64,000 nucleotides of DNA, from contig NZ_LT985747.1 in the NCBI RefSeq assembly GCF_900289175.1, forward strand, positions 538,006 to 602,005, written 5' to 3'. The notes beneath the pieces were generated by a model. It searched no databases and had not been told where the DNA came from. It saw only the letters and a list, made by a program, of their open reading frames with translations. Positions 42,468-49,279 of the stretch are shown in pieces. This stretch comes from Paenibacillus faecalis (GTDB lineage: Bacteria > Bacillota > Bacilli > Paenibacillales > Paenibacillaceae). Position numbers and translations under genes: made by a program. Positions within the stretch are counted from its first letter, which is position 1. Every line of letters starts with the position of its first letter.

Positions 42468-43412
42468 CTACGAGCCTACAATATTATCAGAATAATTTTC
42501 CATCCTCGATTTCTCTAAGACTAAATATTCTTTAATTGCAGTTATTAACTGAGTATCTTTAGTTAATCCAAATATCTTATAAAAGTAAATAAGTGATTTC
42601 CCTTCAGAGTTGATTAGATCCAAAAGAATTCTGGACCTAATTACTTTTTGTAGATTTACAGTTGAAGATAATTTCAAAAAAATTTTTTGCCTACCATTTA
42701 GAATTCCCAATAAGTTATTTATTGAATTTTTATTATGTCTCATACTTTCAAATATATATTCGCTGTCTTCTTTTTCCGACATTCCATATAAAGAAATTAC
42801 CAATTCATATATTTCATTACTCATATCAAATTTTTCTTGGTTGAGTTCTGTTATTTGATATCTAGCATTTTTTATTGTTCTATTCTGTAAATCAATATCT
42901 CCCCATTGAAGGTTAAATAAATGCCTTTGTTCAAACAGATAGTTATATGAGAAAAGTAATATTAGTTTTAGTAGTTGTTTTTCCATTTTCTCTTGATCAT
43001 TTTCTTCTAACTCTAATGCAGAACTAAAAAGAAATTTGAAGTCATTCTCAGATAAAAAGTCCATATCTTGTGGCTTTTTTTCTTTATATTTCTTCAATTC
43101 ATTTTTAATTTCCAGAAAAAAACTATCACTAACTCTCTCATTATAATGGTAAAAAGATAACAGATTAGAAAGTGCATACTTTGCAGTTGCACTCTTTCTA
43201 GAAGTTAGAAATGCCTTTATATCTGATTTGTTAAAAATATCAGTATAATCTTCAACTAAAATTCTAGACTTAAGATGATCCTCTATGTACACTTCAAGAT
43301 CATCATAGTACCGTTTCTTTGTATCGGTAGTATTTGCACGATCTTTAAAGTCAAGATACTTAGAGAAATCAGTTCTAATTGAGTTGAATATATAGCTTTT
43401 GAAGTTCCCCAT
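42468..43412 (-). CDS. Tyrosine-recombinase-fold protein with degenerate active site
   Basis: A 314-residue protein with an N-terminal SAM-like core-binding region (KRYYDDLEVYIEDHLKSR) and a C-terminal domain whose LFEQRHLFNLQWGDIDLQNR resembles the box I region of phage-type integrases (GLRxSELLxLxWxDID). Only one candidate Arg is kept there. The HxLRH box and the GH motif are not recognisable, and no final catalytic Tyr is evident. RBS AAGGAG. It may be an inactivated integrase or a DNA-binding derivative. Confidence 0.6.
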   Translation of the reverse strand: MGNFKSYIFNSIRTDFSKYLDFKDRANTTDTKKRYYDDLEVYIEDHLKSRILVEDYTDIFNKSDIKAFLTSRKSATAKYALSNLLSFYHYNERVSDSFFLEIKNELKKYKEKKPQDMDFLSENDFKFLFSSALELEENDQEKMEKQLLKLILLFSYNYLFEQRHLFNLQWGDIDLQNRTIKNARYQITELNQEKFDMSNEIYELVISLYGMSEKEDSEYIFESMRHNKNSINNLLGILNGRQKIFLKLSSTVNLQKVIRSRILLDLINSEGKSLIYFYKIFGLTKDTQLITAIKEYLVLEKSRMENYSDNIVGS

Positions 43413-44887: not shown

Positions 44888-45397
44888 TCACTTTTTTAAT
44901 TGATCTATTAAGTTTGTTACTTCCCTTGGTGTTCTAAGTATGATGATCTTCTTTTCTTTTTCATATTTCTTTAATTTTTCGAGTATTCCTGGTCTTTTAT
45001 GTTTTCTGAAATTCCATACCCATTTAATGAATTCCCAATCTATTTTCTCAGGGCATCCTTCATTCAAATCTGGTCTCGTTCTTCCATGGTATTTAATTCT
45101 TCTTTTAATGACTCTAAAAGTAGCTATCCACGAAGGTAAATCCAAAAAAATGATTGTATCCGCTCTCGAAATTCTAATATCTAATGTTCTATTATAGTTT
45201 CCATCAATAATCCATTCATCATTAAGAATAAGCTTTCTTTGAAATTCATCCCATTCATGATTAGGGGTTGCAACCCATCCCGGTTCCCAATAATATACAT
45301 CTAAATGATACAAGGGTAATCCAAAAATTTCAGAGAGTCTACTTGATAAAGTAGATTTTCCTGACCCTGCAGATCCAATGACCATTATTCTCTTCAT
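44888..45397 (-). CDS. P-loop kinase-like protein (FlaR/DNA topology modulation type)
   Basis: A 169-residue P-loop NTPase: Walker A IGSAGSGKST at the N terminus, then LPLYHLDVYYWEPGW and WIIDGNY, the signature stretches of the family annotated as DNA topology modulation protein FlaR. The IIFLDLP strand acts as Walker B. Overall an adenylate-kinase-like fold. Real function unclear. RBS AGGAG. Confidence 0.85.
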   Translation of the reverse strand: MKRIMVIGSAGSGKSTLSSRLSEIFGLPLYHLDVYYWEPGWVATPNHEWDEFQRKLILNDEWIIDGNYNRTLDIRISRADTIIFLDLPSWIATFRVIKRRIKYHGRTRPDLNEGCPEKIDWEFIKWVWNFRKHKRPGILEKLKKYEKEKKIIILRTPREVTNLIDQLKK

Positions 45398-45806: not shown

Positions 45807-46145
45807 TTAATCTACTATTATCCTGTCATTCATAGTATTCGGTTGAGATATGACTAAAAATTCTATATCTTTATCCGACTTATTGAATACTTGATGAGCT
45901 CTATACGGTTTTACTTCGATACCTTCATGTTCCTTAAGAATGTATTCCATTCCCTCCACTTCGATAGTCATTGTACCTGATAACATAAAGAAAAATTGCG
46001 TTGACCTTTTATGGAAGTGTCTTACTTCACTTGTACCTATCGGCATTCTCTCATGTATTATACTTCTTTCTTCTTCATCTATAAGCCGCCAACCGTCACA
46101 TTTATCGCCCCAAATATAATGTTCTGCATTATTCCTACTAATCAT
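45807..46145 (-). CDS. Cupin domain protein
   Basis: A 112-residue single-domain cupin: metal-site motif EVRHFHKRSTQFFFMLSGTM around residues 37-56 and the second motif PYRAHQVFN near residue 83. Such small cupins act as dioxygenases, isomerases or sugar-binding proteins; no substrate can be assigned. The ATG at 46145 is preferred (AAGG 9 nt upstream). Its leader begins directly after the attC-like element at 46179-46261. Confidence 0.83.
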   Translation of the reverse strand: MISRNNAEHYIWGDKCDGWRLIDEEERSIIHERMPIGTSEVRHFHKRSTQFFFMLSGTMTIEVEGMEYILKEHEGIEVKPYRAHQVFNKSDKDIEFLVISQPNTMNDRIIVD

Positions 46146-46178
46146 CCTATCCATCCTTTTATGTATTTCGTAGATTTC

Positions 46179-46261
46179 ATATAACGTTTCGCATTCAGAC
46201 TTTAGGGTTGTCTGCTAATACGCTACCTAGAAATTTCTCTGCAGACCAAGGACCGTTAGGA
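46179..46261 (-). repeat. attC-like intergenic element A
   Basis: Read on the minus strand the element starts TCCTAACGG, contains GGTCTGC...GCAGACAACCCT and ends TGAATGCGAAACGTTATAT. TAACG pairs with CGTTA at the ends and GTCTGC with GCAGAC inside, giving a two-step imperfect hairpin of 83 bp. It lies 60 bp after the stop of one acetyltransferase gene and 34 bp before the cupin start. It shares this plan with 47937-48067. Confidence 0.6.
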
Positions 46262-46320
46262 CCGCCGCGTGAATATAGTGTTATCCGGAATTAACGACTT
46301 CTAGAAATACTTCCAAAGAT

Positions 46321-46755
46321 TTATTCCAAGTCCTTACTAAATACTAGCTCTTCTTCCTGAATATAACCTGCTTTTTCATATGTTTTTATAGCCTTTATAT
46401 TCTTTAATCCTGTCAAGATTTTTATATTCTTTACTCCAGAACTCTTAAATATTTCTTCTAATAAGTCTATCATCATTACAGCCAAACCATTCCTTCGTGC
46501 AAATTCTTGTATGTACATTTCTGTAATTTCTGCCTGATATTCTGCATAGCAAAACGATTTATAGATCTGTCCACATGCAAATCCCACGACTTGCTTTTCC
46601 ATTACAGCTACTACAATAGTTTCCCTAGCATTTAATAGATCAGTTTCCACCTCTTCTTTGCTTCGCTGAACCCCATTAAATTGGTAATTCAATTCTACCA
46701 AAGACGGTATATCCTCTTTCACGGCTACACGAACGAGTATTTTAGGCGCTGACAA
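46321..46755 (-). CDS. GNAT family N-acetyltransferase
   Basis: A 144-residue GNAT: VRVAVKEDIPSLVELNYQF at the start, motif A FARRNGLAVMMIDLLEEIF near residue 87 and motif B NIKAIKTYEKAGY near residue 123. It starts at TTG with AAGGAGG 7 nt upstream. Probably a cassette-type accessory gene; substrate unknown. Confidence 0.85.
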   Translation of the reverse strand: MSAPKILVRVAVKEDIPSLVELNYQFNGVQRSKEEVETDLLNARETIVVAVMEKQVVGFACGQIYKSFCYAEYQAEITEMYIQEFARRNGLAVMMIDLLEEIFKSSGVKNIKILTGLKNIKAIKTYEKAGYIQEEELVFSKDLE

Positions 46756-46888
46756 TGAAATGCCTCCTTAAAAGGTTTTGAGTCTTTTTTATTGTAAATT
46801 TCCGATAGTCAGGTGACACAAACAGTATCCCATGAATGACACAAAATCTAATTAAGCCACAGTAAATATTAAATCCATGATTGAAATA

Positions 46889-47770
46889 TCAGATGTTATA
46901 CCAATAGAAAGTATAATGTGAATGCTGATGAAAGCCTATGGACTTATAAAAAGGATTATCAGAAATAACGTATGCTTTTTTAGCACCTAAGGAACAGCTT
47001 CTTTTTAAGGCTTCTAAAACCACCACTTTACCAAGTCCCTTCTGCCGGTACTCTGGAATCGTACATACTGGTTCAACATAAGCATAATCAGTTTTCTGAC
47101 TATACCATAAGCCGCAGTATGCAACATATTCCCCATCTTCATTTTCTGCCACAATATGTAAGAATGAATTCATATTCGTTGCTGACAACATTGTTTTATG
47201 CTTATGAATTGTAATTTCATCAACAGGTACATGTCCTTCGTGGTCAAATGCCTTCCATAATAATTTCTGATGCTTATATAAATCATTCTCTTTATTAAGA
47301 TTTTTCACTGTTATGCCTTCAGGAGTTATGTAATCAAGCCTAACATTCTCTAGTTCAACTTCAAGTACATTTTCAGTCTGATCATTCTTCACAAATTTCC
47401 TACTACGCAATAAGTCTATAGTGTGAGTATCCGTATCATTCACCGCAATCCCAAGGCCTTTTTCATCACTGAAAGTAGCAATGGCATATTCTAATATATC
47501 TTTTTCTAATTCTTTATACCCTTGTTTAGTTGCAAAAAATGCTTCGCCAAAATAATGGTCATAAGTTGTTATACCTACTAACTCGTCATTACAATACCAC
47601 AAGCCAATCTTATCCATTAAGCTACTATTAAAATCAGGATGAAAAAACATCCACTCCCACCTAGCCCAATTCCAATTTATATGTAAACGGTCATCCTTTG
47701 ATAATTCAATCAAAAATTGATAAACTTCATCATAATAAGAATTATCGAAATTTCTAAAATCAATTTTCAT
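46889..47770 (-). CDS. GNAT family N-acetyltransferase (two-domain length)
   Basis: A 293-residue protein. The C-terminal GNAT domain carries PVCTIPEYRQKGLGKVVVLE (motif A) near residue 235-250 and ends with SDNPFYKSIGF. The N-terminal half is a degenerate second GNAT-like domain, a layout seen in Eis-like and aminoglycoside-acetyltransferase-like groups. The start at 47770 has GGGGG 6 nt upstream. Substrate unknown. The 133-bp gap to the next gene shows no attC-like element. Confidence 0.83.
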   Translation of the reverse strand: MKIDFRNFDNSYYDEVYQFLIELSKDDRLHINWNWARWEWMFFHPDFNSSLMDKIGLWYCNDELVGITTYDHYFGEAFFATKQGYKELEKDILEYAIATFSDEKGLGIAVNDTDTHTIDLLRSRKFVKNDQTENVLEVELENVRLDYITPEGITVKNLNKENDLYKHQKLLWKAFDHEGHVPVDEITIHKHKTMLSATNMNSFLHIVAENEDGEYVAYCGLWYSQKTDYAYVEPVCTIPEYRQKGLGKVVVLEALKRSCSLGAKKAYVISDNPFYKSIGFHQHSHYTFYWYNI

Positions 47771-47936
47771 TTCAATCCCCCATTTTTTACGACACAATAA
47801 AATAACTAAAACTTCTTAAAGTACTCAAATAAAATGAATTATACCGCGCATTTCCAATAGTTAGGCAATAAAGTTCAATTATAACTGAAGTGATTCACTC
47901 CGTTAGCTAGTGGTTTTTTGCTCTTGTAGATATTTC

Positions 47937-48067
47937 TTGTAACGTTCTCTGCATTCACGAGCCCGATAACTTAAGGCGCGAATGCACCGGGTGGCTCTGC
48001 CTTGCAGGGTTATCTGTCAGGTTCCACATCTCCGAAATTCCTCGAGCAGATCAAGGATCCGTTAGGC
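47937..48067 (-). repeat. attC-like intergenic element B
   Basis: On the minus strand it starts GCCTAACGGATCC (GCCTAAC fits RYYYAAC, the integron inverse core site), contains GATCTGC...CAGATAACCCT and ends GTGAATGCAGAGAACGTTAC. TAACG/CGTTA and ATCTG/CAGAT pair as in element A; about 48 bp more are inserted between the inner arm and the end. It lies 81 bp downstream of the 48149 gene and 167 bp before the 47770 gene. Confidence 0.6.
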
Positions 48068-48148
48068 GACGCGGTGTGAATGCGATGCTATGAGATGGTG
48101 ATGTCTTCTATAGGATACTCCCATATATCTTACTAGAGTATGGTTTTA

Positions 48149-48577
48149 TTAATAGATCTGGAAGTTTGTATTTCTTGTTTCATGTTTTATGAATGGTTCA
48201 AATTTTATTAGTTTGCTATATTGCAACATTTCAAAATAATCCATTTCGAATAAAGATTTAATTGCGTTATTCATATCATGAAACTTGGATATGTTTATTT
48301 CAAAATTACTAGGTTCTCTACATGCTTCTTCCAGTCCAAGTGAAAAATCAACTAATAAATCATTCATCACAATATTCTTCAGCAAACTCAGTAGTTCTTC
48401 AGAAATATTATCTGTTACACTCACAAAACTACTTGGATCTTTGTAAAATTTAGATAAATAAATGCAAATATTTGTATCTAAATATAGTTTGATTAATTTA
48501 GGATCTATTTTATTTTTGAGGTCTTCAAATGAATTCAATGTTTCATGTATGTACAAAGATGAATAGAAAAATTTCAT
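48149..48577 (-). CDS. Unknown protein with PIN-like N-terminal patch
   Basis: A 142-residue protein. LIKLYLDTNICIYLSKFYK near residue 29 resembles the first strand and catalytic Asp of PIN-like nucleases (LDTNxxI). Later acidic residues (LGLEEACREPSNF) could be the second site. The usual third Asp is not evident and the protein is short, so it may be truncated. The ribosome site is weak (AAGGGA 15 nt upstream). Its leader starts beside a GTTATGC sequence like those ending the attC-like elements. Confidence 0.45.
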   Translation of the reverse strand: MKFFYSSLYIHETLNSFEDLKNKIDPKLIKLYLDTNICIYLSKFYKDPSSFVSVTDNISEELLSLLKNIVMNDLLVDFSLGLEEACREPSNFEINISKFHDMNNAIKSLFEMDYFEMLQYSKLIKFEPFIKHETRNTNFQIY

Positions 48578-48607
48578 TTTAGCTAATCATTCCCTTAATG
48601 TAATTTC

Positions 48608-48715
48608 GCATAACTTCCTATCTACGAACTTCGCGAATACTTCCATATTACGCTTGTTCCCGTACTTCGTAAACACTCCCTTCACCAGGATATTTACGAA
48701 CTTCCCCTACCTAAC
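48608..48715 (-). repeat. Partial attC/attI-like sequence next to the integrase remnant
   Basis: On the minus strand this begins GTTAGGT (48709-48715), an exact GTTRRRY core-site match 10 nt after the integrase stop region, and ends GTTATGC (48608-48614) before the PIN-like gene. Between them are degenerate repeats of GAAGTTCGTA (three to four variants). A 22-bp stretch at about 48623-48645 also recurs in altered form at about 46290-46312, beside element A. Confidence 0.4.
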
Positions 48716-48724
48716 ACCACTTCT

Positions 48725-49078
48725 CAATTATCTACCGGGCTCTTAATCCGCCTGGCGTCTTTCACGGATACAAGAGTATAACGCTCTGTAGTTCGGCTGC
48801 TTTGATGTCCCAGTAACTCTTGTACATATCCGGAGAGCCGTACCGACTTTCAGTAAATGCGTGGCAAAAAAAATGTTGGAGTAGTATATTAACTCACCTT
48901 TTTCGCTACATTGGACCTGTTTAGCGCTTGTTCGAACACCTTCTGTATAGATCTCTCCGTTAAGTGACTTCCTACAGGCCTGGGAAAAGCCATTTTTTAG
49001 ATTTATACAACTCGATATATCGTTGAAGCAGTGGATACGCTATAGACATATTCGCTCGAAATCCACCGTCGTCCCTGT
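48725..49078 (-). pseudogene. Decayed tyrosine recombinase, integron-integrase-like C terminus
   Basis: Minus-strand translation across several frames and stops shows the C-terminal catalytic domain: KSKKWLFPG, then LTERSIQKVFEQALNRSNV, a damaged HxLRHSFATHLL box, then VQELLGHQSSRTTERYTLVS with the GH motif and catalytic Tyr, ending DARRIKSPVDN. The (R/K)SPLD-type ending is typical of integron integrases and close XerCD relatives. In-frame stops and substitutions make it non-functional. The N-terminal half is missing. Confidence 0.8.
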
Positions 49079-49279
49079 ATTTGTTAAATTTTATTAATGC
49101 CGTTTCCAGCAAAAGACCTCAATTTCACGTCCTACCAATATCCATCCCGCATATCAACTTGACCTCAACCATCTCCATCCCCCTGCCTTTCTCGTATTAT
49201 GTGAGAAACCACGACCACATCAAGCAAAGAAAACAACCTCCATCTGCCTACAAATACCTCCTACCTGAATATAAAAAAG

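Follow-up and report, generated by a model that had tools for sequence, protein, structure and literature searches.

The window analyzed here, a 64,000 nt stretch of the genome of Paenibacillus faecalis, very probably holds the decayed head of a gene cassette array. Two intergenic elements appear to be the attC-like sites of this array. They adjoin an attI-like site and the broken gene of a recombinase, the intact relatives of which lack the insertion that is specific to the integron integrase IntI, yet likely take up and shuffle cassettes. Judged from comparisons of sequences, the window would thus contain the relic of an integron variant that is distinct from the known integrons. An earlier note on this DNA had proposed a relic integron. 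The integron-like character of the relic is borne out by the arrays in relatives, the complementarity of cassette ends, the attI-like site and the recombinase at the array head, but the strict definition of an integron does not cover it.

The layout of the region is summarized in Table 1. The dead integrase that had been suspected beside the elements is real, as its pieces were recovered by tblastn. From 48611 to 49044, the window shares 83% DNA identity with the array head of a relative (G010), and the identity stops at the core. The attI-like site follows the plan of the sites found in relatives between the recombinase and the first cassette. A GTTAGGT core site had been noticed earlier; this sequence is indeed present near 48715, but the alignment with the attI-like sites of relatives puts the core further downstream (Table 1). 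The G010 array contains more copies of a recombinase end plus attI, at L044:2047-2312 and L044:15805-16243, which are 76–79% identical to the corresponding stretch of the window.

Table 1. Features of the decayed cassette array in the window, from the recombinase remains downstream (R1, covariance model of the element).
Feature	Position	Strand	Length	Evidence and remarks
Array recombinase remains, in pieces	48730..49128	-		tblastn with 55 relatives
Pieces of the broken recombinase	48996-48730, 49082-48978, 49128-49033	-		tblastn; best piece 48996-48730, E 4e-27
attI-like site	48604..48707	-		core GTTATGC, G at 48614; GTTCGTAAAT-type boxes before core
Cassette gene 1	48149..48577	-	142 aa	ORF
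attC-like element b	47931..48098	-		R1 match, 72.5 bits, E 1.4e-12
Cassette gene 2, GNAT acetyltransferase	46889..47797	-	302 aa	ORF, PF00583 E 3.1e-10
Cassette gene 3, GNAT acetyltransferase	46321..46755	-	144 aa	ORF, PF00583 E 6.9e-14
attC-like element a	46173..46291	-		R1 match, 84.6 bits, E 5.1e-15
Cassette gene 4, cupin	45807..46154	-	115 aa	PF07883 E 5.9e-14
P-loop protein	44888..45397	-	169 aa	weak AAA match

For cassette gene 1 the Pfam scan was empty, and the label PIN-like is that of the earlier note. No element is left between cassette genes 2 and 3, and none was found after cassette gene 4 by the element scans. The P-loop protein has 50% amino acid identity to a gene located between two elements of a Gorillibacterium array (L046:17983-18462), and its gene is probably a former cassette gene. 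The cassette ends in the window have decayed: the attI triplet agrees with the first element at two of three bases, and the second element misfits the first. Elsewhere in the window (42468-43412, minus strand) lies the gene of a 314-aa protein that matches the phage integrases weakly (PF00589, E 1.4e-4, below the cut-off) and is unlike the array recombinase.

The two proposed elements exist, share one plan and lie between genes on the minus strand. A covariance model of relatives (R1) matched both copies far above chance, element a being one of the 11 training rows of R1 and element b lying outside the training set. The positions given earlier, 46179-46261 and 47937-48067, are those of genuine elements, but these reach outward by roughly another 30 nt; the borders of 83 and 131 bp were dropped in favour of the wider ones of the model. 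Likewise, CCTAACGG, previously taken to form the 5' borders, is internal to the elements. The conserved 5' box lies further out and consists of TAAC followed by ATTCAC (TAGC in the second window copy), and full copies have the plan TAAC-Ann-ryATTCACG ... CGTGAATrC-ragAAC-GTTAknyGAAA. That the right ends do not fit GTTRRRY, which had been listed as a weak point, is a property of the whole class, because the 3' boxes fit in only 73 of 396 cases, even with their GTTR part guaranteed by the construction of the search, and the 5' boxes fit RYYYAAC in 82 of 376. The 7-base boxes by which integrons are recognized are therefore not characteristic of these elements. Patterns built from the motifs of the earlier note retrieved one match in the own genome and six in 60 relatives, fewer than a reversed control pattern.

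The elements share a conserved fold. Across 150 copies, 93.0% of the cells were paired, compared with 79.5% after shuffling, and 512 double changes were counted versus 146; the structure of R1 was made by hand on 11 short copies and the covariation alignment was fitted to it, so that these counts lean towards that structure. Shuffles and slid partners nevertheless remained far below the observed covariation. RNAalifold, run on the alignment of mixed lengths, returned only 8 pairs. Inverted R and L boxes together with a conserved single-strand fold, as expected of the attC sites of integrons, are thus seen in the consensus and in the covariation. Covariation of this strength would suit an RNA as much as single-stranded DNA, and a transcribed element between the genes, be it a terminator, a riboswitch-like structure or an RNA-stability structure, would also fold. 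However, one tRNA was the sole Rfam match of the window at the gathering score, and an RNA element would leave both the match of ends and starts across a whole gene (see below) and the recombinase at the array head without a role; we regard this reading as extremely unlikely.

Elements of this type form arrays in many relatives. When the second element was used as a DNA query, 22 of 60 genomes matched, the own genome included, with many of the matches in same-strand clusters. An iterated profile gave 230 copies, distributed over 14 stretches; 228 have the orientation of the array. The arrays of relatives comprise up to dozens of elements. In a survey of the genus with an E threshold of 1e-4, 66 of 100 genomes contained one or more R1 matches and the remaining 34 contained none; the copy numbers in this survey are floors because 33 candidates were scored per genome.

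The unit of these arrays was delimited by comparing the variable bases before TAAC either with those after the previous GTTA, that is, at the start of the same cassette, or with those after the adjoining GTTA. Exact triplet matches between the end of a cassette and its own start were found in 108 of 138 cases, compared with 12 of 140 for the adjoining cassette and a random expectation of 5.8%; in 2000 permutations the mean was 8.7 and the maximum 19. This comparison left out the two opposite-strand copies among the 230 and the elements without a core found by pattern, so that 167 5' cores and 183 3' cores of the 228 copies were kept. For five bases in the named genomes, the values were 99/134 (own start) versus 7/141 (adjoining). 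In addition, homologous cassettes located in different places were 0.78–0.99 identical inside, whereas the previous and next genes were only 0.58–0.64 identical. This was the case for all 18 pairs examined. These pairs had been selected because their bodies are similar and, drawn from 25 cassettes of 11 families, they are not independent of each other. In an earlier and less clean comparison, both ends fell within 60 nt of a core in 28 of 136 matching stretches, many of which lay outside arrays. The match of the end with the own start and the agreement of homologous cassettes inside only indicate that gene and element moved as a unit, and by these comparisons they would move together as in integrons. 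The arrays of one-gene cassettes that are typical of integrons are accordingly present, each cassette end matching its own start. As a side observation, near-identical cassettes with changing neighbours are repeated in a row in Fusibacter sp. 3D3 (L168:11140-18580), and a patch-less recombinase, that is, one without the IntI insertion, adjoins them.

The 308 cassettes have a median length of 763 bp. An ORF of at least 80 aa is present in 276 of them, and the longest ORF runs with the array in 252 and against it in 24. Among 110 cassette proteins that were scanned, eight matched an acetyltransferase family and others matched NUDIX, DinB or nucleotidyltransferase. PADLOC assigned one cassette protein to Shedu SduA and labelled another as NucC-like.

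In the own genome, BLAST returned the query alone and missed a second array. R1 gave six matches: the two in the window, three clustered at C2:2230118-2231743 (plus strand; L235:8119-9744), and a weak one. As these matches fall mainly in two clusters, the copies are clustered rather than scattered. Scatter through the genome without a cassette context had been named in the earlier note as the finding that would speak against an integron, and the two clusters favour an array instead. The second array retains three elements, its testable end/start triplets fit in 2/2 cases, and no recombinase match was found in the 18 kb stretch that contains it. The own genome has no match to the recombinase family at E up to 1e-45 and only the broken piece is left, which marks the window as a relic. 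Both arrays of this genome are remnants.

These results also bear on the possibility that the elements are MITEs or other scattered repeats, i.e., non-autonomous transposons or stem-loop repeats that lie between genes by chance. The existence of many similar, structured, intergenic copies would be compatible with such repeats. The copies, however, follow each other on one strand at the distance of genes, each element needs the far end of the adjacent gene unit to complete its repeat, gene and element move together, and the own genome shows two clusters in place of scatter. A unit that runs from core to core does not fit MITEs and refutes this explanation, to which we give practically no weight.

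The complementarity of the cassette ends extends well beyond the triplet. Analyzed position by position for 300 cassettes, own start and own end are complementary out to p14 (p7, for example, being position 7 outside GTTA), with values of 0.83–0.89 from p8 to p12 compared with an expectation of 0.26–0.43, and with a break at p7 (0.02) and, in part, at p6. Around the core, the ends thus pair across roughly 17 positions, interrupted at p7 by a conserved A.C mismatch. In 231 of 259 Paenibacillaceae cassettes, the start base at p7 is A and the end base is C, which corresponds to a G.T wobble on the other strand. For the joined site, prediction gives the bottom strand the greater stability in 231/259 cassettes, and the joined site is predicted to be more stable than the site within the array in 252/259. 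The A.C mismatch was also found in arrays detected de novo beside members of the same recombinase family in Flavobacterium (13/14), Treponemataceae (5/5) and a Bacteroidota MAG (3/4). Because end and start of a cassette are complementary, a complete site exists only when both ends are joined.

A tyrosine recombinase gene is located at the head of the array, in array direction, in 11 genomes, and is broken in three of them. Of the 27 Paenibacillaceae loci in a protein-based scan, 24 have elements downstream of the recombinase and the remaining three lie at contig ends. Element and recombinase co-occur across the 60 relatives (Fisher p 7e-6). Six of 17 relatives have a recombinase match without an adjoining element: four matches are at contig ends, one is G045, with stops in the gene and ample room, and one is G052, a recombinase of another type. 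The stop codon of the recombinase gene is followed by GTTCGtrrATAAGAC-GTTAnnnGAAA, and in 8 of 11 heads the triplet of this attI-like site agrees with the first cassette; it misfits in G014 and G049, and the match in G041 is to an element that abuts the truncated gene. As in integrons, an attI site therefore seems to lie beside the recombinase gene.

The predicted structure of the recombinase (pLDDT 84.7) has the IntI-attC complex 2A3V as its nearest solved fold in Foldseek, and the best sequence matches in the PDB are the XerA-like 4A8E and 5HXY. With an E limit of 0.1, the N-terminus matched the HARP domain (PF07443) in 18 of 55 family members, the best E being 6.6e-6; the protein of G032 was not matched. 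In a Bacteroidetes MAG (L181:9392-11050), a recombinase ORF of 553 codons seems, by eye, to have three HARP-like repeats before the catalytic part. The G032 protein scores 225.3 bits against the XerA-like family NF040815 and passes the cut-off of 220, and it fails the cut-off for IntI. This assignment by NCBIfam, together with the existence of arrays and remnants that have no intact head gene, would agree with cassettes moved by host recombinases of the XerC/XerD type, the head gene being a passenger. The array recombinase shares with XerA-like proteins a catalytic domain without the IntI insertion, but differs from them by about 90 additional N-terminal residues, by its location at the head of cassette arrays, and by a nearest fold that is 2A3V and not XerA. 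Moreover, arrays of different appearance in three phyla have one and the same recombinase family at their head, and the adjoining attI-like site fits the first cassette in most heads. Movement by host Xer proteins is therefore very unlikely.

A simpler proposal would be that the window is the relic of an ordinary integron, derived from classical IntI arrays, with an integrase sequence that has merely drifted. The architecture is the same, and the IntI array of Vibrio sp. HDW18, our sole IntI control, shares with the arrays described here a tyrosine recombinase at the head, an attI, co-directional one-gene cassettes, TAAC/GTTA cores, structured attC sites (about 120–175 nt), and a cassette end that is complementary to its own start. 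Partial scores were also obtained with the IntI model TIGR02249. However, 0/11 array genomes had an IntI above the cut-off of this model, and the additional domain that is specific to IntI is lacking from the array recombinase. The catalytic boxes are 55–61 residues apart in the 74 measured of 80 loci (57–65 in 208 measured of the 240 relatives listed), compared with 100 and 101 in two IntI proteins, which contain the specific insertion. The alignment of the G032 protein with the Vibrio integrase (2A3V) falls into two segments separated by a gap. In the Vibrio array, the pairing of the cassette ends fades by p9 and the A.C mismatch occurs in 0/55 cassettes, in contrast to about 17 paired positions with A.C in the arrays described here; in addition, the Vibrio integrase gene is directed away from its array, whereas the recombinase gene runs with the array here. 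In a quick tree, in which the Xer branches are long and IntI is represented by two rows, the patch-less recombinases are separated from both IntI rows with an SH-aLRT of 97. We therefore consider an ordinary IntI relic unlikely. The patch-less branch of the tree also includes G016 and G052, IS91-type tyrosine recombinases of 286–287 aa that have no HARP-like N-terminus and are not found at array heads. We take them to be the type found beside IS91-like transposases; an IS91 transposase is annotated next to a tyrosine recombinase in one record.

Intact arrays of the same kind, with the same recombinase family, were found in three phyla, Bacillota, Bacteroidota and Spirochaetota. With its shorter relatives counted, the recombinase is matched in 32 of 398 Bacillota genomes (E up to 1e-70), and in Fusibacter (L168, Bacillota) the cassette pairs fit in 5/8 cases. 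Family members are also present on two Chryseobacterium plasmids. On the plasmid of Chryseobacterium sp. SNU WT5 (L239:11971-17766), a patch-less recombinase is followed by attC-like elements; on that of C. oryzae (L240), the recombinase is present and the same scan found no element. Outside the three phyla, fitting cassette pairs were counted in Nitrospinae L140 (1/1), L141 (1/2), L169 (0/2) and L156 (0/1), and the other loci contain no testable pair. A locus of Candidatus Altarchaeum (L155) has a patch-less recombinase and TAAC..CGTTA elements; 1/2 pairs fit, and the p7 mismatch was not seen.

Cassette arrays have been described in some of these groups. A report on Treponema integrons gives attC lengths of 63–132 bp, a GTTAGGT site between integrase and attC and, by its coordinates, an integrase of about 398 codons in T. 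brennaborense, and it found no traces of an integron in T. primitia (PMC3607928). A T. primitia protein of 394 aa has a box spacing of 59 and is thus patch-less, and some published spirochaete integrons may belong to the patch-less class. Archaeal cassette arrays with attC sites outside the usual clades have likewise been reported, in a search that required the IntI-specific domain (PMC9668308); the archaeal loci found here, such as L155, differ in carrying patch-less recombinases. The same 2022 article calls this domain necessary for integron recombination (PMC9668308). IntegronFinder 2.0 detected one complete integron in all Firmicutes, and its authors leave the near-absence from such clades open (PMC9024848). 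No account of a patch-less integron class was found in the literature searched, preprints and most subscription papers being outside this search.

The substrate of IntI is the folded bottom strand of attC. A cassette of the arrays in relatives, which runs from core (GTTA) to core and as a rule comprises one small gene and one element, would be excised by the recombinase in circular form. In the joined site, it is the bottom strand that would then fold; on this strand A.C becomes a G.T wobble, and it is the strand predicted to be more stable. The folded strand would be recombined at the attI beside the recombinase gene, with the HARP-like N-terminus and the marked arm in the roles that the insertion of IntI and, in classical attC sites, the extrahelical bases have. 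We lean, with some reserve, towards a second class of integrons in at least Bacillota, Bacteroidota and Spirochaetota that is built on patch-less recombinases of the HARP type, the HARP part and the G.T wobble arm replacing the insertion and the extrahelical bases.

If this class is real, searches that depend on the IntI domain are blind to it, and this blindness would largely account for the seeming lack of integrons in Bacillota: IntegronFinder looks for this domain, yet two thirds of the genomes surveyed in one genus of this phylum match the array element. Should the recombinase be active, the insertion would be unneeded for cassette recombination and cassette systems would be more widely spread than has been thought, and the conserved A.C/G.T position would offer a direct test of the choice of strand by the recombinase. 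The cassettes represent a large gene reservoir, with 259 proteins in 229 families, the Shedu defence protein included.
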